From contig JAOTWF010000013.1 of NCBI GenBank assembly GCA_029863005.1, forward strand, positions 1 to 48,477: a DNA stretch of 48,477 bases, given 5' to 3'. The DNA is from Gammaproteobacteria bacterium. Lineage in GTDB: Bacteria > Pseudomonadota > Gammaproteobacteria > Acidiferrobacterales > Sulfurifustaceae. A program made the position numbers and the translations under genes. Positions 38,724 through 48,467 of the stretch are shown piece by piece (the first letter of the stretch is position 1; each line of letters starts with the position of its first letter). The notes beneath the pieces are model-generated. The model did no database searches, had not been told where the DNA came from, and worked only from the letters and a program-made list of their open reading frames with translations.

Positions 38724-39396
38724 GTCCGGTAAGCAGGCGGTGGTGCTGGTTTCCGGCGGTCTCGATTCCGCCACGATGCTGGCGATCGCGCGCGCCGAGG
38801 GTTTTGCCTGTTACGCGCTAACCTTCGATTATGGCCAGCGGCACCGGGTCGAACTCGAGGCGGCACGCGCGATTGCCGCGAGACTGGGTGCGTTGGATCA
38901 TCGCGTCGTCAAACTCGACATCGGCTGGATGGGCGGTTCGGCGCTGACCGATCGCGCCATCGCTGTGCCGGAGATCCCGACCGAGGGAATTCCGGCGACC
39001 TACGTGCCAGCGCGCAACACGGTATTCCTGTCGATCGCCCTCGGCTGGGCCGAAGTGCTCGGCGCGCAGGATGTATTCATCGGCGTCAATGCGATCGATT
39101 ATTCGGGTTATCCCGACTGCCGCCCGGAATACATAGAGGCATTCGAGCGTCTGGCACGGATAGCCACCCGCGCCGGCGTCGAAAACCGGCCGATTAAGAT
39201 TCGCGCGCCACTGATTCAGATGCGCAAGGATGAGATCATCCGTACCGGCGTCGGATTGGGTGTGGATTTCGCGCTGACAATCTCATGCTACGATCCCGAC
39301 CCCGAGGGACGCGCCTGCGGTCGCTGTGATGCGTGTCGGCTGCGCCGTCAGGGCTTCGCCGGCGCTGGAATAGCGGACCCGACTCGTTATTTATAA
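38707..39396 (+). CDS. queC: 7-cyano-7-deazaguanine synthase
   Basis: QueC converts the QueE product into preQ0 with ATP and ammonia. The 229-residue protein has the PP-loop SGGLDSAT (16-23), [28 protein letters not shown] and a zinc site of four cysteines (C194, C204, C207, C210). ATG 38707 is chosen because upstream codons of the frame encode an unrelated cysteine-rich stretch lying over queE. preQ0 is also used for some DNA modifications, but no such genes are seen here. Confidence 0.96.
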
Positions 39397-39483
39397 CAAT
39401 AAAATCAACGATCACTGGTGATTTCCAGCGAACGCGGGCAAAATACCGTCCTCGCCGCGCTGCCACAGGCCAAGGCGGCATCA

Positions 39484-39540
39484 AGCGGACGCTGCGGCGG
39501 TCCGCTGCCGAAAGTGACCGACACGCTGTCAGCTCGGTCA
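39484..39540 (+). other. Two tandem stem-loops upstream of the YeeE/YedE gene
   Basis: AGCGGAC (39484-39490) pairs with GTCCGCT (39500-39506), and TGACCGA (39515-39521) with TCGGTCA (39534-39540), whose loop holds a further CTG/CAG pairing. They occupy the 155-base gap between queC and the transporter start. No T-run follows either, so a leader or processing role is as likely as termination. Confidence 0.45.
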
Positions 39541-39551
39541 GCGATAAACCG

Positions 39552-40769
39552 ATGATTGGGGGATTTATGGGTTTCACCGTACATAATGAAGTCTTGTTAC
39601 TGGTTTTTCTGGTCGCGCTTGTGATTGGAGCGGTCGGCAACAAAACCAATTTCTGCACCATGGGCGCGGTGTCCGACTGGGTGAACATGGGCGATACCGG
39701 ACGCATGCGGGCGTGGCTATTCGCCATTGCGATCGCGCTGACCGGCTTGTTGCTGTTCGAAATCATGGGCGCTGTGACGCTGCCGTCGGATAGCTTCCCC
39801 CCGTACCGTACGTCGAATTTCGCCTGGTTGCGTTACGTGCTCGGCGGTTTATTGTTCGGTGTTGGGATGACCCTCGGCAGCGGCTGCGGGCAGCGCACCA
39901 TGGTGCGTGTCGGTCAGGGAAATCTTAAATCCCTGGTCGTGCTGATCATCGCCGCCATTTGCGCGTACCTTATGCTATGGACCGATTTTTTCAGCATCGT
40001 CTTCATGAGCTGGATCAATCCGACCACCATCGAGCTGTCCAAGTACGGCATCCCGAGCCAGGAAATTGGTACCATCGTGGGTGGTGTCTTCAATATCAAG
40101 AACACCCAGCTGCTGCACTGGTTGATCGGCGGTGTCGTGGCGTTGACGCTGTTCGTTTTCATCTTCAAGTCACCCGATTTCCGCAGCCGTTTTGACAACT
40201 TTCTGGGTGGCGGCGTGATGGGACTGGCGGTAGTGGCCGGCTGGTATATTACCGGCGGCGCCCTGCGCGAGGCCTGGGAGGAGTATGCGGCGTTTGCGAC
40301 GACGATTCCGAGCCGCGTGGCGGTGCAGTCGTACACCTTTATCAGCCCGATGGGGGATACCGCTCGTTACCTGATGCAACCCGCGCAAACCACCATGATC
40401 AACTTCGGCGTAATGGCGTTGACCGGCGTTATCATCGGCTCGTTCCTTTACGCGATCTTCACACGCAAGTTCCGCATCGAATGGTTTGCGTCGAAATCTG
40501 ATTTTTTGAATCACGCCGTGGGCGGCTCGCTCATGGGATTTGGCGGTGTTCTCGCCATGGGTTGCACCATCGGGCAGGGCGTGACCGGAGTGTCCACGCT
40601 TGCCCTGGGTTCGGTGCTGGCGTTAGTATCAATCATATTCGGCAGTGCGCTGACAATGAAGGTCCAATACTACATGCTGGATGAACAGGGTTTCTGGCGG
40701 GCGCTGCACATGGGACTCGCGGACATGAAGCTTCTCCCGGCGTCTGGTGGAACCAAGACACCGGCGTAG
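39552..40769 (+). CDS. YeeE/YedE family sulfur-compound transporter
   Basis: YeeE/YedE proteins are inner-membrane transporters; characterised members such as TsuA take up thiosulfate through a line of conserved cysteines. This 405-residue protein is very hydrophobic, with about nine to ten helices. It keeps three key cysteines: C35 (GNKTNFCTMG), C112 (GSGCGQRT) and C338 (AMGCTIGQGVTG). The repeats around the first and last of these are similar, as expected of the pseudo-symmetric fold. The start is uncertain: ATG 39552 and ATG 39567 both precede the first helix. The gene fits the sulfur-oxidising theme of the right end. Confidence 0.88.
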   Translation: MIGGFMGFTVHNEVLLLVFLVALVIGAVGNKTNFCTMGAVSDWVNMGDTGRMRAWLFAIAIALTGLLLFEIMGAVTLPSDSFPPYRTSNFAWLRYVLGGLLFGVGMTLGSGCGQRTMVRVGQGNLKSLVVLIIAAICAYLMLWTDFFSIVFMSWINPTTIELSKYGIPSQEIGTIVGGVFNIKNTQLLHWLIGGVVALTLFVFIFKSPDFRSRFDNFLGGGVMGLAVVAGWYITGGALREAWEEYAAFATTIPSRVAVQSYTFISPMGDTARYLMQPAQTTMINFGVMALTGVIIGSFLYAIFTRKFRIEWFASKSDFLNHAVGGSLMGFGGVLAMGCTIGQGVTGVSTLALGSVLALVSIIFGSALTMKVQYYMLDEQGFWRALHMGLADMKLLPASGGTKTPA

Positions 40770-41105: not shown

Positions 41106-41633
41106 ATGCAGCGACTCTTCTTTGCCTTGTGGCCTCCACTTGAGTTGAGCCGGAAATTATTCAGGCTCGGTGGCAATGTCTTGAAAGGAGGCGCCGGTCG
41201 GCACGTGGTGGCAGAAAATATTCATCTGACTTTAGCATTTCTCGGATCCGTCAATGCGACATTCCGGGAATGCGCCGAACTATCGGCCTCCAACGTGCAA
41301 GTAGACGCCTTTTCGTTGGATCTGGAGTGGTTAGGTTGTTGGCCAAAATCCGGCATACTTTGGGTTGGACCGGAACTTACGCCCAAGGCGTTGTGGCAAC
41401 TTGTACAGCAGTTGAATGCAGGCCTAGCCGGTTGTGGCCATGAAGCGGAGAAGAGGCCTTACGCAGCGCACCTGACGCTCGCGCGCAATGCGCGCCCATG
41501 TTTACCAGCGCGCGTTATAGATGCCCATCGGTGGGAGATAGACCGATTTTGTCTTGTCCAATCGCATACGCTTCGGGAAGGCGCGCGTTATGAAATTCTT
41601 CGTGAATGGAAACTCATAAAACCCACAACGTGA
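41106..41633 (+). CDS. thpR: RNA 2',3'-cyclic phosphodiesterase (LigT/ThpR)
   Basis: This 2H-phosphoesterase family opens 2',3'-cyclic phosphates and can join tRNA halves with a 2'-5' bond. The 175-residue protein starts MQRLFFALWPP and has the two catalytic HxTx motifs, HLTL at 40-43 and HLTL at 122-125 (AAHLTLARN). It lies 75 bases after the tRNA gene and is convergent with the Rieske fusion gene. Confidence 0.92.
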   Translation: MQRLFFALWPPLELSRKLFRLGGNVLKGGAGRHVVAENIHLTLAFLGSVNATFRECAELSASNVQVDAFSLDLEWLGCWPKSGILWVGPELTPKALWQLVQQLNAGLAGCGHEAEKRPYAAHLTLARNARPCLPARVIDAHRWEIDRFCLVQSHTLREGARYEILREWKLIKPTT

Positions 41634-41674: not shown

Positions 41675-42301
41675 CTACCAGCGCGCGTAAAGCCGGCCGT
41701 TTTCCACTTTCGCCTCGAATCGTTTTAGGGGGCGATTTCCCTTTTCCACACACTCGCCGGACTTAATGTCGAAGGCCCAGTGATGCTTCGGGCAGGTGAG
41801 GCGAAAGCCGTCCAGCGCCAGGTGTGGGATATTGGTGACCTGATGTGGGCAACGGCTGTCGTATACATGAAAATCACCATTGTCCCGGTAGATGAAAAGG
41901 CTCCGCCCGTCGCTGTCACAGTAAGTGATCTTACTCTCGGGGATCTTGTCCACCGGTCGAACATCGTGCCAGCGTATTACTGCGCCCAGGTTCTCGGCGC
42001 GGAATTCCGGGATGTCCATGTCGAGCAGGATATCGATGGCCCACACGATCTTGGCCAACCCGAGCGCCGGGAACGCATGCAGAATGGCATCGAGGATTTC
42101 ATTGGGCGTGGCGCCCGCGTTCAGAGCTTGGGGAAGGTATTGGCGGAATCCGCCTTCGGTTTGGACCGCAATCTTGGTGATGACAGTGATCAGCATGCGG
42201 GTTTTGGGGTCGAGCGATTTACCCGTTTCCTTGAGAAACTTAAGATACGACTTCATCGCCTCGGGTCGGGCGCTGACCAAATAATTCAGAGCGTCGCTCA
42301 T
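41675..42301 (-). CDS. Carboxymuconolactone decarboxylase-like / Rieske [2Fe-2S] fusion
   Basis: The 208-residue protein joins two domains. Residues 1-105 resemble the carboxymuconolactone decarboxylase/AhpD fold (TRMLITVITKIAVQTEGGF, then QYLPQALNAGATPNEILDAI), but the CxxC of the AhpD peroxidases is absent. Residues 107-208 are a Rieske ferredoxin domain with the cluster ligands C151-P-H153 and, 16 residues on, C170-PK-H173. No signal peptide is seen, so it should act in the cytoplasm as an electron carrier or redox sensor. Start 42301 has GGAG upstream on the minus strand. It lies downstream of an HD-GYP gene, separated by 154 bases. Confidence 0.85.
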   Translation of the reverse strand: MSDALNYLVSARPEAMKSYLKFLKETGKSLDPKTRMLITVITKIAVQTEGGFRQYLPQALNAGATPNEILDAILHAFPALGLAKIVWAIDILLDMDIPEFRAENLGAVIRWHDVRPVDKIPESKITYCDSDGRSLFIYRDNGDFHVYDSRCPHQVTNIPHLALDGFRLTCPKHHWAFDIKSGECVEKGNRPLKRFEAKVENGRLYARW

Positions 42302-42434: not shown

Positions 42435-42463
42435 GGGCCTGAGATGCCCAGCCGTTCAGGCCC
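42435..42463 (-). terminator. Stem-loop over the HD-GYP stop codon
   Basis: GGGCCTGA (42435-42442) and TCAGGCCC (42456-42463) pair perfectly over 8 bp with a 13-base loop. The stop codon of the HD-GYP gene lies inside the stem. No T-run follows on the minus strand, so termination is uncertain. Confidence 0.35.
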
Positions 42464-43736
42464 CGAGCGGGATATATTTGGTGGGGATGACGCCGTGCTC
42501 GCCCGGCGGGAGGACCTTGCGAATCTCCAGTTTGGTGCTGCCTGTTTCGAGGGACGGGTCCATCAAGTCAATGACTTTAGATGGCGTATACGGTTGCTTG
42601 TCGGAGTTCAGCACCAATGCCACCTTGGGTCGCAGGCGCCGAGCACGGTTGATCGAGACGACCACCCCAATGCTGTTGTTACTGAGTTCGACCACGCTGC
42701 CGATGGGATAGATGCCCATGCACTGAATGAACTGCTCGACCAGTATCGGTTGAAAGTCTCGGCCGCGCCAGGAATACATCTTGTTCAGCGCATCGTGCGC
42801 GGATAGCCCGTTATGGTAGGAGCGGTCCGAGGTAATGGCGTCGTAGCAATCCACGATGGCCCCGACGGATCCAAACAGCCCGATCTCTTCGCCTTTGTAT
42901 CCCGCGGCATATCCCCCGCCACTGAAACGTTCATGATGGTAGCGTGCCACGTCGATTGCGATGGAGGGGATACCGTGTGTCTGTTCCAGGATCTCGACGC
43001 CGTGCGGGACATGGCTCTTCATGAGCGAAAATTCCTCGTCGGTCAGCTTGCCCGGTTTATTGATGATTTCATTCGGGACTTTCATTTTCCCGATGTCATG
43101 CAGCAAAGCGCCGATACCCAGTAGATTGAGTTCTACATCGGAAAGATCCAGATGCCGGCCGAAGGCCAGTGCCAACACACAGACCCGCAGACTGTGCAAG
43201 GCGGTGTATTCATCCTTGTCCTTGAGCTGATTGAGACACATGAGCGCGTCAGGATTGCGGATAACGCTGTCCACCATGTCCGCCACGACTTTCTTGGCCG
43301 CCGTGGTATTGATGCTGCGGCCGAGCCGGACATCGCCCATGATGTTGTAAACGGTTTCACGGGTTTCCGTGACAATTTCCCTGGCATGACCAAGCTCCTC
43401 CTCGAGGGTGGTGACGTCCTGATACCGGGGTGGACGCCGGTGTCCCGGTGTGAACCGGTCGAGCACCTTTTCCAGTTTGACGATGCGCTTTTCTTCCACT
43501 GCCGGCGCGGCCGCGGGCCGTGGTTTGTTGTTGGCGGGCCTGTGTTTCGGATTAATGAGATAGCTTTGCTCCGTGTCGATGAAGACGTGCTTGCAGTAAC
43601 GGGTAATTTGCTCGATCTGTTCATCGGACTCGATTTCGAATCCCTGGAACAGGAACGGCGTTTCGCGCCAATGACGATCCAGCTCGGAAACGTACATTCC
43701 CGGGCGCAGATCCTGAACGAAGATCTTCTTCTTCAT
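42456..43736 (-). CDS. DUF3391 + HD-GYP domain protein, GYP motif changed to GYA
   Basis: This is a paralogue of the HD-GYP protein at 12824-14056, with the same layout: DUF3391 domain (KKIFVQDLRPGMYVSELDRHW) and HD-GYP domain (about 170-375). The metal ligands are intact (H181, H213-D214, H242, H267, H268). The GYP loop, which in active enzymes helps bind c-di-GMP and partner GGDEF domains, reads GGGYAAG with Ala for Pro at 277. A Pro/Lys-rich linker (62-84) separates the domains. ATG 43736 gives 426 residues and starts the DUF3391 domain. It lies downstream of phosphoribulokinase on the same strand. Confidence 0.9.
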   Translation of the reverse strand: MKKKIFVQDLRPGMYVSELDRHWRETPFLFQGFEIESDEQIEQITRYCKHVFIDTEQSYLINPKHRPANNKPRPAAAPAVEEKRIVKLEKVLDRFTPGHRRPPRYQDVTTLEEELGHAREIVTETRETVYNIMGDVRLGRSINTTAAKKVVADMVDSVIRNPDALMCLNQLKDKDEYTALHSLRVCVLALAFGRHLDLSDVELNLLGIGALLHDIGKMKVPNEIINKPGKLTDEEFSLMKSHVPHGVEILEQTHGIPSIAIDVARYHHERFSGGGYAAGYKGEEIGLFGSVGAIVDCYDAITSDRSYHNGLSAHDALNKMYSWRGRDFQPILVEQFIQCMGIYPIGSVVELSNNSIGVVVSINRARRLRPKVALVLNSDKQPYTPSKVIDLMDPSLETGSTKLEIRKVLPPGEHGVIPTKYIPLGA

Positions 43737-43807
43737 ATTGTCTAAAGATAGCAGCAAGAAATGAGCCAGAGAGGCTTATTTTTCAGCTGGTAAAAACGGG
43801 GAAATAG

Positions 43808-44704
43808 CTAGGATTTCTTCTTCTTTTCCAGTAAATCGTGGATCAACGGCGTGAGGATGATCTCCATGGCAAAGCCCATTTTCCCCCCGGGAACGACAAT
43901 GGTATTGGGCCGTGACATGAATGAATCGTGGATCATGCTGAGAAAATAGGGGAAATCGACATTCTTGGGGTCGCGAAAGCGGATGACCACCAGGCTCTCA
44001 TCGAGAGTCGGAATATCGCGCGCGATGAAGGGGTTGGAAGTGTCCACCACCGCCACGCGCTGAAAGTTTACGTGCGAACGCGAGAATTGTGGGGTGATGT
44101 AGTGCACGTAATCGTACATGCGGCGCAAAATGGTGTCGACCACCGCCTCCGCCGAATAGCCACGCTCGGCGGTATCGCGGTGAATCTTCTGAATCCATTC
44201 GAGGTTGACGATCGGGACCACGCCGACGAGCAGGTCCACCCACTTGGCCACGTCCACCCCGGCTTTGGCATCCACCACGCCGCCGTGCAGGCCTTCATAG
44301 AACATGAGATCGGTATCGCGCGGGATGTCTTCCCAGGGAGTGAACTCGCCGGCTTTGAAGTTCGTATTGAGGCGCTTGTTTTGTTCCGCCGCCTCGCTGT
44401 CATTGTGTAAATAGTAACGCTTCTTCCCGCCGCCGGTTTCACCGTAAGCTTTGAACTGTTTCTCCAGTTCGTCGAAAAGATTGGCCTCCGGGCCGAAGTG
44501 GCTGAAACGATGATTGTCGCTGGCCTCCGCTTGTTTCATGGCCGCACGCATTTCCGCGCGGTTGAAGCGATGAAAACTATCGCCTTCGACAATGGCCGGA
44601 TTGATTTGCGCCCGCCGGAAGATATGCTCGAAGGCGCTTTTGACGGTGCTGGTGCCCGCGCCGCTCGAGCCGGTGATGGCAATAATCGGATGCTTCCTGG
44701 ACAT
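43808..44704 (-). CDS. prkB: Phosphoribulokinase (proteobacterial class I)
   Basis: Phosphoribulokinase makes ribulose 1,5-bisphosphate, the CO2 acceptor of the Calvin cycle. The 298-residue protein matches the octameric proteobacterial enzyme of Rhodobacter along its length. Walker A is GSSGAGTST (12-20), the catalytic aspartate is D42 (EGDSFHRFNRAEM), and FYEGLHGGVV, NLEWIQKIHRD and VVDTSNPFIARDIPT are also present. AAGGGG lies upstream of the ATG on the minus strand. RuBisCO is not in the window. The gene lies 99 bases downstream of soxB. Confidence 0.95.
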   Translation of the reverse strand: MSRKHPIIAITGSSGAGTSTVKSAFEHIFRRAQINPAIVEGDSFHRFNRAEMRAAMKQAEASDNHRFSHFGPEANLFDELEKQFKAYGETGGGKKRYYLHNDSEAAEQNKRLNTNFKAGEFTPWEDIPRDTDLMFYEGLHGGVVDAKAGVDVAKWVDLLVGVVPIVNLEWIQKIHRDTAERGYSAEAVVDTILRRMYDYVHYITPQFSRSHVNFQRVAVVDTSNPFIARDIPTLDESLVVIRFRDPKNVDFPYFLSMIHDSFMSRPNTIVVPGGKMGFAMEIILTPLIHDLLEKKKKS

Positions 44705-44803: not shown

Positions 44804-46543
44804 TTATACGGCGGTATACCCGGGGTTGCCGGACACACCCTTGATCTTTGGCGTATACGGGCGCTGGATGCTGACAGTTTTCTTGGAACGCAGATAGTCA
44901 GCGACCACATCCCAGACGGGGGTCCCGGGTTCAATCGGCTGGACGCTGGCCCAGCCGGCGACTTTGTATTTTTTCGCCGGATCAAGCGGCTTGCCTTTCA
45001 CTACCGCGTTCTGGATGCGTTTTCCGTGCAGCTTGTTGAGATCCAGCGTGTATTGCAGGCCGCCCACGCGTACCATGTCACCGCCTTGCTGGTAGTAGGG
45101 GTCGGGATGGAACAAGTTATCGGCGATGTCTTCCAGGACGACCTTGATCTGCTCGCCGGTGAGGTGATTGACTGTCGCCGTGGCATAAGTAATCGCCGTT
45201 TGGTCCATGAGATGTTCCATGGTGATGGCATCCCCCGGGAGCAGGGTCGTGCCCCAGCGAAACCCGGGCGAGAAAGCCATATCCGCGCCCTGCACCGCGA
45301 GCAAGGCCTCCACGATCAATTGATCGAACGTCCCGTTGAAATTGCCGCGCCGGTAGAGCAGTCCTTCGGTCACGGCGAGTTTTTCCGCCAGCTTGGCGGC
45401 GTACGGCGCCCGCACTTTTTCAATATGAGCGGACATATCCGCATCGGCGGGGAGGAGGTTGGCGAATACCGGCAGCAATTTGAAGCGGTAATCGGCCACT
45501 TTGCCGTTTTTGACATCGAGATCGAGCAGGGACAGGAACTTGCCGTTGGCGCCGGAGTTGATGACCAGCGTTTTGCCGCCGGGATTATTCACCAGTGACG
45601 GCGCCGGCATGGCGTCATGCGTATGTCCACCGACGATGACATCGATGCCGCGCACGCGGCTGGCCATTTTGAGATCCACGTCCATGCCATTGTGCGACAG
45701 TACGGCGACCACTTGCGCACCCTTTCCGCGCACTTCATCCACCATTTTCTGCATGCGGTCGTCGTTGATGCCGAAACTCCAATCCTCGAACATGTAACGC
45801 GGATTGGCGATCGGCGTATAAGGAAACGCCTGGCCGATAATGGCCACCGGAACCTTGTTGACCTCACGAATGACGTAGGGCTTGAAAATAAGCTCGCCCC
45901 ACGTGGCATCGGTAACGTTCTGTGCCACAAAATTAATATGGCCCTTCAAGTCCTTCTCGATGATCTCCTTCACGCGCTCGGCGCCGTAGGTGAATTCCCA
46001 GTGCCCGGTCATGACGTCCACGCCGAGCAGTTTTTGCGCATCCACCATGTCTTGTCCCTTGGTCCACAACGCCGTGGCGGAGCCCTGCCAGGTGTCGCCG
46101 CTGTCCAGCAGCAGCGAGCGGTCGGGCCGGCTGGCGCGCAGGTTCTTGACCAGGGTCGCGATGTGCGCATAACCGCCGATCTTGCCATATCGGCGCGCGG
46201 CGTCTTCGAAATTAATATAGGTAAGCGCGTGTGCCTCGATTGAGCCCGGCTTGATGCCGAAGTGCTTCAGCAGGGCCTCACCGACGAGATGCGGCGGTTT
46301 CCCGCGGGACGCCGCGACACCGATATTGATATTCGGTTCGCGGTAATAGGTCGGGATAAGTTGCGCGTGGGAATCACTCATGTGCAGCAACGTCACGTTA
46401 CCAAACGGTGGCACGTCGTAAAGGTTCTCCGGATTCCTGGTGTTGGCGTGCGCCTTGCGACCGATCGGTCCGCCTTCGAATACCAGGCCGGCGGCGGCGC
46501 CCATGGCAAGCAGTTGCAGAAATTCACGTCGGGACAGACTCAT
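44804..46543 (-). CDS. soxB: Sulfur-oxidation thiosulfohydrolase SoxB
   Basis: SoxB hydrolyses sulfate from the SoxY-bound sulfonate in the periplasm, using a dinuclear manganese site. The 579-residue precursor has a twin-arginine signal (SRREFLQLLAMGAAAGL). Metal and active-site blocks follow: D57 and H59 (HMSDSHAQL), LLDSGDTWQGS (145-154), TGHWEFTYG and GGHTHDA, then a C-terminal 5'-nucleotidase-like domain. Start 46543 is chosen because it begins the Tat signal. A terminator separates it from soxA upstream, so it needs its own promoter. Confidence 0.96.
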   Translation of the reverse strand: MSLSRREFLQLLAMGAAAGLVFEGGPIGRKAHANTRNPENLYDVPPFGNVTLLHMSDSHAQLIPTYYREPNINIGVAASRGKPPHLVGEALLKHFGIKPGSIEAHALTYINFEDAARRYGKIGGYAHIATLVKNLRASRPDRSLLLDSGDTWQGSATALWTKGQDMVDAQKLLGVDVMTGHWEFTYGAERVKEIIEKDLKGHINFVAQNVTDATWGELIFKPYVIREVNKVPVAIIGQAFPYTPIANPRYMFEDWSFGINDDRMQKMVDEVRGKGAQVVAVLSHNGMDVDLKMASRVRGIDVIVGGHTHDAMPAPSLVNNPGGKTLVINSGANGKFLSLLDLDVKNGKVADYRFKLLPVFANLLPADADMSAHIEKVRAPYAAKLAEKLAVTEGLLYRRGNFNGTFDQLIVEALLAVQGADMAFSPGFRWGTTLLPGDAITMEHLMDQTAITYATATVNHLTGEQIKVVLEDIADNLFHPDPYYQQGGDMVRVGGLQYTLDLNKLHGKRIQNAVVKGKPLDPAKKYKVAGWASVQPIEPGTPVWDVVADYLRSKKTVSIQRPYTPKIKGVSGNPGYTAV

Positions 46544-46645
46544 AGGTTTAGATGATCTCCAAAGGCAATCTGGCAATGAACAACATACATTCGGTGTCCA
46601 AACTTATTCTAAGACGCCCTGTAATTACAACATATTCCCCTATTG

Positions 46646-46680
46646 CAAAAAAAGAAAACCCGGCGTGAAAGCGCCGGGTT
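46646..46680 (-). terminator. Intrinsic terminator after soxA
   Basis: On the minus strand AACCCGGCG (complement of 46672-46680) pairs with CGCCGGGTT (complement of 46657-46665) over 9 bp with a six-base loop. It is followed by a T-rich run (complement of 46646-46658). It lies 20 bases after the soxA stop and before soxB, closing a soxYZA transcript. Confidence 0.88.
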
Positions 46681-46699: not shown

Positions 46700-47569
46700 T
46701 TAGTTGCGCATGGCCGGCGCCGTCAGGGGCAGGCCGCTGCTATTGAAGGTCTCATAAAGCTGAAGATTATTGTAAATATCGCTGCCGTGCTTGAACGGCT
46801 TGGCGCGCACCTGCGAGTTGCAGGTCACGTAGCGGCGATGCAGGGTCTCAATCCGGGCCCAGGCAATACGCTGGGCCGGCCAACCCGTGGGATGGCCCAG
46901 CGCGGCGCTGAGCGGCTGGTTGCCGCCGAAGTTCCGGCCCGCCAAGTCCATATGGCAATGGGCGCAGGCGAAATTGAGTTGGCCGCGGCGCTGCCACCAG
47001 AATTTCTTGCCCTCTTCGTAGGCCTTGATCGCGCCCGGAGCGGAGATATCGATCTTGATGCGCTGCCCCTGTGACAGGCTGTAAAAAGCCGCCGTCACCT
47101 CGGCCAGCTGCACGCGCGCCTTGGTGTCCTTATCAAGGTCGGCCGTCAGGAATTGAAAGTCCTCGCCGTTGCGTTTTGCACAATCCATGATGTCCATTTC
47201 CGCGGTGCGGATCATCTTCGAGGACTCGTCCCAGTAAGGGTAGCCCTGGGCGATGTTCTTGCCGCCGTTCTTGAAGCAGCTGGCGAAGGTCTTGCCGTTC
47301 TTAAACGGCTTCTCCCACAGCTTCATTCCGTTGGTCAGGCCGAATTCGTAGGGCGGGAATTCGTTCATCAGATTCCATTGGTCCCGGTATTCTTCATTGC
47401 CAGGCAGGGCATAGAGGCCATTTGCGAATTCATCGAATGGCACGGTTGGAAATTTCTTCTTGAAAAATGCCTGGAATTGCTTGAGATCGGAAGCCGGATC
47501 GGCCATAACGGCCGGCAGTGCTCCGGCGACAAGACCCATAGCAACCAGAGTCAGTAGTATTTTTTTCAT
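46700..47569 (-). CDS. soxA: Sulfur-oxidation c-type cytochrome SoxA (mono-haem form)
   Basis: SoxA, with SoxX, oxidatively joins thiosulfate to the SoxY cysteine. The 289-residue precursor has a Sec signal (cleavage near residue 23, ALPAVMA). One haem motif is present, C202-AHC-H206. C250 in RRYVTCNSQVRAKP matches the haem-ligating, catalytic cysteine. In the region of the first haem of di-haem SoxA only single cysteines remain (C98, C130), as in the mono-haem type where they form a disulfide. AAGGAG precedes the ATG. The partner soxX is not in the window. Confidence 0.95.
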   Translation of the reverse strand: MKKILLTLVAMGLVAGALPAVMADPASDLKQFQAFFKKKFPTVPFDEFANGLYALPGNEEYRDQWNLMNEFPPYEFGLTNGMKLWEKPFKNGKTFASCFKNGGKNIAQGYPYWDESSKMIRTAEMDIMDCAKRNGEDFQFLTADLDKDTKARVQLAEVTAAFYSLSQGQRIKIDISAPGAIKAYEEGKKFWWQRRGQLNFACAHCHMDLAGRNFGGNQPLSAALGHPTGWPAQRIAWARIETLHRRYVTCNSQVRAKPFKHGSDIYNNLQLYETFNSSGLPLTAPAMRN

Positions 47570-47619
47570 CGCGGGTTCTCCTTTTGGTGAATTCACGGAC
47601 CGGGGTTAAACGGTGCTCC

Positions 47620-47943
47620 TTATGAGCCGACAGTGGCTTCCCCGCCACCGCTTTTCCCCTGATTGTCGCTCCAGTTGATCTTGATTTTATCTCCGGGTTT
47701 GGCGCCCTTCAGCTTGATTCCAATCAGCGGATCTTTCGACACCGCCGGACCGAGATCGGTGGATACGACTTCCTTGCCGTTCACGGAGAAAGTCAATTTC
47801 TGGATGTAGTGTGCCGGAACCTTCTTGCTCTTGTCCTTGGGGTCCGAGCGCAGCCCGGTTTCCATTGGATGGTCAACCAGCACCAGGACGTCGGTTACAC
47901 CGTCACGGGTTTTGGTCCGGATTTTCGTTGCAATGTCTGCCAT
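47620..47943 (-). CDS. soxZ: Thiosulfate oxidation carrier subunit SoxZ
   Basis: SoxZ forms the sulfur-carrier complex with SoxY. The 107-residue protein has an immunoglobulin-like fold and the family pattern: KIRTKTRDGVTDVLVLVDHPMETGLR, AHYIQKLTFSVNGKEVV and KPGDKIKINWSDNQGKSG. It has no signal peptide, as expected, since it is exported together with Tat-targeted SoxY. It lies between soxY and soxA on the same strand with gaps of about 50 bases. Confidence 0.96.
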   Translation of the reverse strand: MADIATKIRTKTRDGVTDVLVLVDHPMETGLRSDPKDKSKKVPAHYIQKLTFSVNGKEVVSTDLGPAVSKDPLIGIKLKGAKPGDKIKINWSDNQGKSGGGEATVGS

Positions 47944-47993: not shown

Positions 47994-48467
47994 TTACCCC
48001 CCACACCCGCCCGCCGTGACCTTGATGTTCTGCTTGGCCATGTGCAGCTTGCCACCGGCCTTGACGACGGCATACACGTCCGAGGTCGCGCCCATCTTCA
48101 TGCGGGCGGAGAAAAAGCCGCTGGCCCCGGCGAAACTGGCGTGCGCCACCAGGGGGCTCGGGTTCTTCTCGACGAACACGGCAATCTCTTCCACGTTCGG
48201 GAGATCGGCCGTGACCTGGACCTGGACCTGGGAGCTGTTCTCGGCCTGGGTCGGGGCCTTGATCTTGACCGCGGGCGATTCGCTCATCTCGTCGGTGCCA
48301 AAGAGGGCCTTGATCGCGGCCTTAAGCTCCTTGGACTCGAAGGCACCCTTGGGCCATTCGGCGGCAAAGGCCCAGGGGGCACGGAACAGGCCAACGCTGC
48401 CGGCGCCGAGCAGCACGGCGGTGGCAAGCGTGTTTTTGAGGAACAAACGGCGGGGATGGTGAGTCAC
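47994..48467 (-). CDS. soxY: Thiosulfate oxidation carrier subunit SoxY (GTG start)
   Basis: SoxY carries sulfur intermediates on the cysteine of its C-terminal swinging arm. The 157-residue precursor has a twin-arginine signal (PRRLFLKNTLATAVLLGAG, cleavage near residue 36, AFAA). It ends exactly in the diagnostic GGCGG. The start is GTG 48467, preceded on the minus strand by GGAGG at the very edge of the window. In many sulfur oxidisers soxX lies upstream; here that position falls outside the window. Confidence 0.96.
   Translation of the reverse strand: MTHHPRRLFLKNTLATAVLLGAGSVGLFRAPWAFAAEWPKGAFESKELKAAIKALFGTDEMSESPAVKIKAPTQAENSSQVQVQVTADLPNVEEIAVFVEKNPSPLVAHASFAGASGFFSARMKMGATSDVYAVVKAGGKLHMAKQNIKVTAGGCGG

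Follow-up and report, generated by a model that had tools for sequence, protein, structure and literature searches.

What does a small protein do in which a carboxymuconolactone decarboxylase (CMD) fold is joined to a Rieske iron–sulfur domain, and how is it connected with the sulfur oxidation genes that lie close to its own gene? The question is raised by a locus in a gammaproteobacterial genome of the Sulfurifustaceae (GenBank assembly GCA_029863005.1, contig JAOTWF010000013.1), of which a stretch of 48,477 nucleotides, termed the window, was analysed. Proteins of the AhpD type rely on a CxxC pair of cysteines and on a catalytic histidine. A first-pass annotation of the window, made from the sequence alone, held that the CxxC pair is missing from this fusion and that the Rieske cluster may have replaced thiol chemistry, giving a redox enzyme or a sensor that acts in sulfur or carbon metabolism. 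Here, we describe the protein family, the neighbourhoods of its genes and its distribution among genomes, and weigh the roles to which these point.

A conserved fusion of two known domains

The fusion gene and its neighbours in the window are listed in table 1; the motif AGGAGA is found shortly 5′ of the fusion-gene ATG.

Table 1. The CMD–Rieske fusion gene and neighbouring features, in window positions.
Feature	Position	Strand	Basis and remarks
LigT/2′-5′ RNA ligase family gene	41106..41633	(+)	Pfam; convergent downstream neighbour
CMD–Rieske fusion gene	41675..42301	(-)	ORF, Pfam, alignment; 208 aa + stop
C-terminal Rieske half, residues 107–208	41678..41983	(-)	Pfam, alignment, fold
N-terminal CMD-fold half, residues 1–106	41984..42301	(-)	Pfam, alignment, fold
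HD-GYP-type (DUF3391-HD) gene	42456..43757	(-)	Pfam; upstream neighbour
Phosphoribulokinase gene (prk)	43808..44704	(-)	NCBIfam NF011997, 499.9 bits; conserved neighbour
soxB	44804..46576	(-)	TIGR04486, 878.6 bits
Terminator-like hairpin and T run, between soxA and soxB	46657..46680	(-)	Consensus match only
soxA	46700..47596	(-)	TIGR04484, over cut-off
soxZ	47620..47943	(-)	TIGR04490, over cut-off
soxY	47994..48467	(-)	TIGR04488, over cut-off

Pfam family PF02627 (CMD) matches residues 13–92 of the product (E 2.8e-10; 40.5 bits against a cut-off of 23) and PF00355 (Rieske) matches residues 111–187 (E 2.6e-13; 50.1 bits against a cut-off of 20.3). Relatives were aligned as alignment A1, which holds 73 of 101 distinct long sequences, and both domains are present at E ≤ 0.001 in all 73, the window included. 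Because of this constancy, a chance open reading frame or an assembly join is excluded; the fusion, as the first-pass annotation had it, is a real and widely conserved family. No signal peptide or membrane segment was seen in the protein by eye.

The predicted structure agrees with this division. The full-length AlphaFold2 model has a mean pLDDT of 94.2, and residues 1–106 modelled alone reach 95.3. The top-ranked PDB matches of the N-terminal half are CMD-family proteins, such as 2af7 (Z 10.6, rmsd 3.4, 95 residues aligned) and 3d7i (Z 10.4, rmsd 3.1, 94 residues aligned), a Z score near 10 being moderate for this helical domain. Foldseek returned no match for this half at E ≤ 0.001, the best value of 0.006 being weak, and the CMD assignment draws more strength from sequence profiles, which find the CMD structures 2q0t (1e-7), 7y4r (1.9e-5) and 1vke (5.9e-5). 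Profile and fold searches thus agree, and the possibility that the N-terminal part might prove unrelated to CMD did not hold up; with PF02627 over its curated cut-off and a CMD fold, this half is a member of the CMD family. Membership of a subfamily is another matter. The PcaC model for 4-carboxymuconolactone decarboxylase (TIGR02425) scores 16.4 bits against a cut-off of 155.7, and the residues that define an AhpD alkylhydroperoxidase are substituted, with T48, G51 and Y55 standing in place of C, C and H.

The C-terminal half is a Rieske domain by its PF00355 score and its two cysteine and two histidine ligands, and among PDB structures it matches Rieske ferredoxins best (2qpz: Z 14.2, rmsd 3.4, 101 residues aligned). 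The ligands C151, H153, C170 and H173, earlier read as intact in the window, do not vary in any of the 73 sequences, and a third cysteine, C184, is kept in 72. If a cluster is bound, this half would be a one-electron carrier. It is not part of a Rieske non-haem oxygenase alpha subunit: the protein stops after the Rieske domain, and Pfam finds no C-terminal catalytic mononuclear-iron domain in it at E ≤ 0.01.

The CxxC pair is likewise missing throughout the alignment. In the register of the HMMER alignment to 1vke/1p8c, where T48, G51 and Y55 line up with the two cysteines and the histidine of TM1620, the first position is T in 70 sequences and S in three, the second is G in all 73, and the histidine position is Y in all 73. 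Around these substitutions the CMD half is well conserved. K43, G51, Q54, Y55, E68 and D71 are unvarying in the 73-sequence alignment, and a wider polar set is kept that consists of R35, K43, T48, R53, Q54, Y55, E68 and D71. The mean frequency of the majority residue over the 73 sequences is 0.794 in the CMD half and 0.668 in the Rieske half, and of the 51 positions that are at least 90% conserved both in the 73 sequences and in 20 copies from another class, 39 lie in the CMD half. Because it is the more conserved of the two, the CMD half is probably functional rather than a decayed scaffold, and the fusion would represent a CMD fold maintained under strong selection after the loss of its thiols. 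That the cluster replaces thiol chemistry does not follow from the missing pair: the same comparison suggests a working CMD half, and the CMD protein 2q0t also lacks CxxC in the aligned stretch.

Gene order in the window and in relatives

In the window, the terminator-like hairpin between soxA and soxB may separate soxYZA from the side that carries soxB, prk and the fusion gene; the consensus scan found 14 such sites against 8.0 expected. In the gap between the HD-GYP gene and the fusion gene, no terminator-like or promoter-like site is listed on the minus strand, a weak argument for co-transcription. Near the sox region, an ORF on the plus strand (39333–40769) encodes a sulfur-transport membrane protein like YeeE/TsuA, which matches Pfam Sulf_transp with an E value of 1.8e-60 and falls under the TsuA cut-offs.

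This arrangement recurs in the family of the window (f1): each of its 14 bearers has soxB on the contig and strand of the fusion gene and upstream of it; in one of these (G017), soxB is a fragment under the cut-off. The usual order is soxB–prk–(HD-GYP)–fusion with a convergent LigT gene. The HD-GYP gene is upstream of the fusion gene in several relatives in the family, and exceptions are the loci L087 and L088, in which prk immediately precedes the fusion gene. Two genomes without the fusion gene show the same neighbourhood. In G003, soxA–soxB–prk–HD-GYP is retained and is followed by genes that, by eye, resemble efflux genes. In G019 (L160:8031-10007) the fusion gene is missing and 9 bases separate the HD-GYP gene from the LigT gene; G019 has soxB and no dsrA over the cut-off. 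The fusion gene is therefore dispensable, since both genomes keep the sox neighbourhood without it.

In some other lineages the fusion gene is found beside dsr or sox genes. One case is a set of 14 Woeseiaceae-type loci that form a single clade, where cysG, the gene for sirohaem synthase, lies no more than about 119 bp upstream and overlaps the end of the fusion gene in some. In 13 of the 14, dsrA is at most 3.2 kb from the fusion gene on the opposite strand, and in 12 it is accompanied farther out by dsrBEFHCMKL, all on the opposite strand. These loci also carry a gene of the TauD family (2-oxoglutarate dioxygenase-like) between dsrA and cysG (L052:7279-8154 (+) and its homologues), and a homologue of it adjoins the fusion gene in L064. 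In two genomes of another family (f93), the fusion gene precedes a dsrA of the same orientation, by 0.9 kb in one and 4.6 kb in the other. Single cases are L064, in which dsr genes begin 2.7 kb from the fusion gene, L013, with soxB at 1.35 kb, and G336, with a divergent soxB at 338 bp.

Under a simple model, linkage to dsr or sox within 5 kb in 3 of 12 families has a chance probability of 6e-5 to 2e-4, a figure that includes the window's family, where the linkage was first noticed. When that family is dropped, 2 of 11 families are linked and the probability is 0.002 to 0.005. The test counts one trial per family, though as many as three genomes per family were examined. In most loci the neighbours of the fusion gene vary, and none of 20 loci from another class, several of them short, has a dsr or sox neighbour.

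A different neighbour is seen in 11 loci, mostly of divergent bearers (L073, L109, L110, L111, L115, L116, L117, L118, L119, L122 and L125). Here a small protein, by eye anchored in the membrane at its N-terminus, is encoded directly upstream of the fusion gene, often overlapping it or lying within about 11 bp. An ADYxGLFG-like motif is present in most of the 11, and the two copies scanned matched no Pfam family.

Distribution and co-occurrence with sulfur oxidation genes

A scan of GTDB genomes gave 103 candidate stretches, 75 of which are relatives with 55–90% identity, nearly all of full length. Among 96 related genomes, 20 carry the family at E ≤ 1e-50, 19 of them at full length and one (G014) from residue 46 onwards; some match at E ≤ 0.001 was present in 66 of the 96, and these were mostly Rieske-only or CMD-only and were excluded. 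The gene dsrA is over the cut-off in 16 of the 20 bearers versus 36 of the 76 others (p 0.011), and soxB in 17 of the 20 versus 39 of the 76 (p ~0.01). One bearer (G009) has a piece of dsrA at a contig end, and three (G014, G017 and G064) have none. Within the 20 genomes of the window's own family the contrast is weak: 11 of the 14 bearers have dsrA over the cut-off, as do 3 of the 6 non-bearers. Bearers were also taken from 50 of the 75 loci, those passed over being chiefly near copies; of these 50 genomes, 40 had dsrA over the cut-off, four had a partial dsrA or a dsrB-like match and six had none.

The wider class gives a divided picture. In a sample of 369 gammaproteobacterial genomes, scored at E ≤ 1e-50 for dsrA and E ≤ 1e-120 for soxB, 37 bear the fusion at E ≤ 1e-30. 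Near bearers, with at least 62% identity, number 20: dsrA is found in 18, soxB in 17 and either gene in 19 (the exception with neither is G269), compared with 99, 132 and 143, respectively, of 332 non-bearers. For dsrA this yields a Fisher p of 9.4e-8, which ignores relatedness, the 20 bearers belonging to 12 families. The other 17 bearers are divergent (the split, at 62%/60% identity, is post hoc, and G176, G305 and G406 are partial copies), and among them dsrA occurs in one, soxB in none and a RuBisCO-family match in one. Because the divergent bearers are nearly without dsrA and wholly without soxB, the family extends beyond sulfur oxidisers; conversely, Dsr does not need the fusion, since only 19 of the 118 class-sample genomes with dsrA carry it. 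In a tree of 100 rows, in which many deep forks are open, the bearers that lack dsr are clustered, requiring 8 changes versus 20.3 with shuffled labels.

Copies extend beyond the class. Among 165 genomes sampled across the phylum, they are present in 36 from another class, and dsrA was found in all three of the other-class bearers tested. We take these bearers to be, probably, Magnetococcia, and one of them to be Magnetococcus marinus MC-1. Closer to the window, the bearers include genomes matched to Sulfuricaulis limicola HA5, which is of the window's genus, and Sulfurifustis variabilis skN76, which is of its family; both have dsr and sox, and as cultured bearers they make the fusion open to testing. 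Thioalkalivibrio denitrificans is a further bearer.

Two further lines were abandoned. Phosphoribulokinase was dropped as a marker of autotrophy, given that NF011997 also matches E. coli, and its count (223 of 369) is unused. A search for a plasmid copy matched 27 records, of which one had at least 80% query coverage (Halorubrum, 23% identity); this match is spurious, because it overlaps two differently annotated genes.

Possible roles of the fusion protein

The reading that we favour, tentatively, is that the fusion protein transfers electrons as an optional accessory in cytoplasmic sulfur oxidation, its CMD half serving for docking or ligand binding. An electron-transfer role of this kind is suggested because a Rieske half, the polar set of the CMD half and an association with dsr and sox genes come together in one family. 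The product would be a soluble cytoplasmic redox protein, probably a homo-oligomer of the CMD type with one predicted Rieske [2Fe-2S] cluster per subunit, and would act as an optional accessory to reverse Dsr, alongside Sox. Its CMD half, without AhpD thiol chemistry, would form the docking or ligand site from its polar set, and the cluster would accept or hand on single electrons. The family is a conserved, predicted redox protein of bacteria behind the oxidative part of the sulfur cycle, and if it serves Dsr, it would give that route one more electron carrier. Weighing against this reading are the many dsrA genomes without the gene, the divergent bearers, the weak contrast in the window's family, the varied neighbours in most loci, the lack of dsr and sox neighbours in the other-class loci and the opposite orientation of the dsr genes in the Woeseiaceae-type loci.

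A bolder version, which we consider unlikely, makes the CMD–Rieske oligomer a component of cytoplasmic sulfur oxidation that has so far gone unrecognised, with C184 as a possible sulfur-holding thiol that would lie near the cluster. A sulfur-bearing partner or a small sulfur compound would dock in the remodelled CMD pocket (K43, T48, R53, Q54 and Y55), and electrons would exit via the Rieske cluster on a route beside DsrL and DsrMKJOP.

It is possible, if rather doubtful, that the protein has no special tie to sulfur and works as a redox enzyme or electron carrier of general use. Its frequency in sulfur oxidisers would then follow from lineage and from redox needs held in common, and the dsr and sox gene order would reflect co-regulation in some lineages only. 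The near absence of sulfur oxidation genes from the 17 divergent bearers fits such a generalist, as do the other neighbours and the upstream membrane-anchored protein in several of them, the 99 non-bearers that have dsrA without the fusion, and the weak dsrA contrast within the window's family. The enrichment of dsrA in nearer relatives and the recurrence of dsr or sox linkage in separate families are harder to accommodate. Together, co-occurrence and linkage carry the proposed connection with sulfur metabolism into several lineages beyond the window, and a role in carbon metabolism, suggested at the same time, found no specific support.

A redox or iron–sulfur sensor or regulator, acting through contacts with partners, is improbable. 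The protein is small, has a cluster domain and is encoded beside an HD-GYP gene in the window's family, but Pfam finds no DNA-binding or signalling domain in it, and the HD-GYP gene is not adjacent in L087 and L088; the sensor role proposed in the first-pass annotation is thus left with little support. Quite improbable is a role as ferredoxin to an oxygenase, of the Rieske or the TauD type, with the CMD half as a decarboxylase. This would suit the nearest solved relatives of the Rieske half, which are oxygenase ferredoxins, and the TauD-family gene near the fusion gene in L064 and the Woeseiaceae-type dsr loci; however, no oxygenase is found among the adjacent window genes scanned, and the PcaC and oxygenase-ferredoxin NCBIfam models are far under their cut-offs. 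An AhpD-like peroxidase or antioxidant protein is very improbable despite the shared fold, as other residues stand in for the histidine and the two CxxC cysteines in 73 of 73 sequences, and AhpD thiol chemistry is largely excluded by the absence of the cysteines.

Comparison with known systems

The architecture is fairly widespread, but no characterised example was found in the literature searched, and the doubt whether it might be common and already characterised is not borne out. The open-licence literature, outside which most subscription journals fall, yielded no description of a CMD–Rieske fusion. Papers that hold both domain names have titles on aromatic degradation and other unrelated subjects. 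CMD and Rieske are handled as separate proteins in the relevant passages of PMC7438803, PMC12628177, PMC11925935 and PMC11446756, the main text of PMC6397845 contains neither term, and in the available text of PMC13047784 Rieske appears only as PetAB. Both domains are known, and the family formed by their fusion is apparently undescribed.

The N-terminal half shares its fold with the single-repeat CMD/AhpD proteins (2af7, 3d7i, TM1620 (1vke/1p8c), lpg0406 (5dik) and RclX (7y4r)), together with the helix and 'AL..GA...EI' segment that follow the active-site position. Unlike these, the fusion has neither CxxC nor the catalytic histidine, carries an added Rieske domain and has its own unvarying set of K43, G51, Q54 and Y55. 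The two-repeat CMD protein 2q0t resembles the fusion in lacking CxxC in the aligned stretch, but has kept the histidine.

The C-terminal half has the fold of the soluble Rieske ferredoxins of oxygenases (2qpz, 5bok, 1vm9 and 1vck), with which it has the C-x-H and C-x-x-H ligands in common at approximately 19–25% identity. Unlike these ferredoxins, which serve aromatic oxygenases, it does not stand alone, it has the additional, nearly invariant C184, and the scanned neighbours of its gene in the window include no oxygenase.

Reverse Dsr (dsrABEFHCMKLJOPNR) is usual in the genomes of the nearer relatives and adjoins the fusion gene in several lineages, whereas most of the dsrA genomes sampled lack the fusion gene. 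In the sections of PMC5024460 that name the dsr genes of S. limicola and S. variabilis, the fusion is not among them. A last likeness concerns NirD, the Rieske-like small subunit of sirohaem nitrite reductase, which is the top NCBIfam match of the Rieske half (TIGR02378, 39.5 bits). The fusion is far under the equivalog-domain cut-off of 74.65 and differs from NirD in carrying a CMD half and, in the Woeseiaceae-type loci, in having dsr genes as neighbours; yet in those same loci it adjoins cysG and lies near dsrAB, which encodes a reductase of the sirohaem type, a setting that resembles that of NirD.
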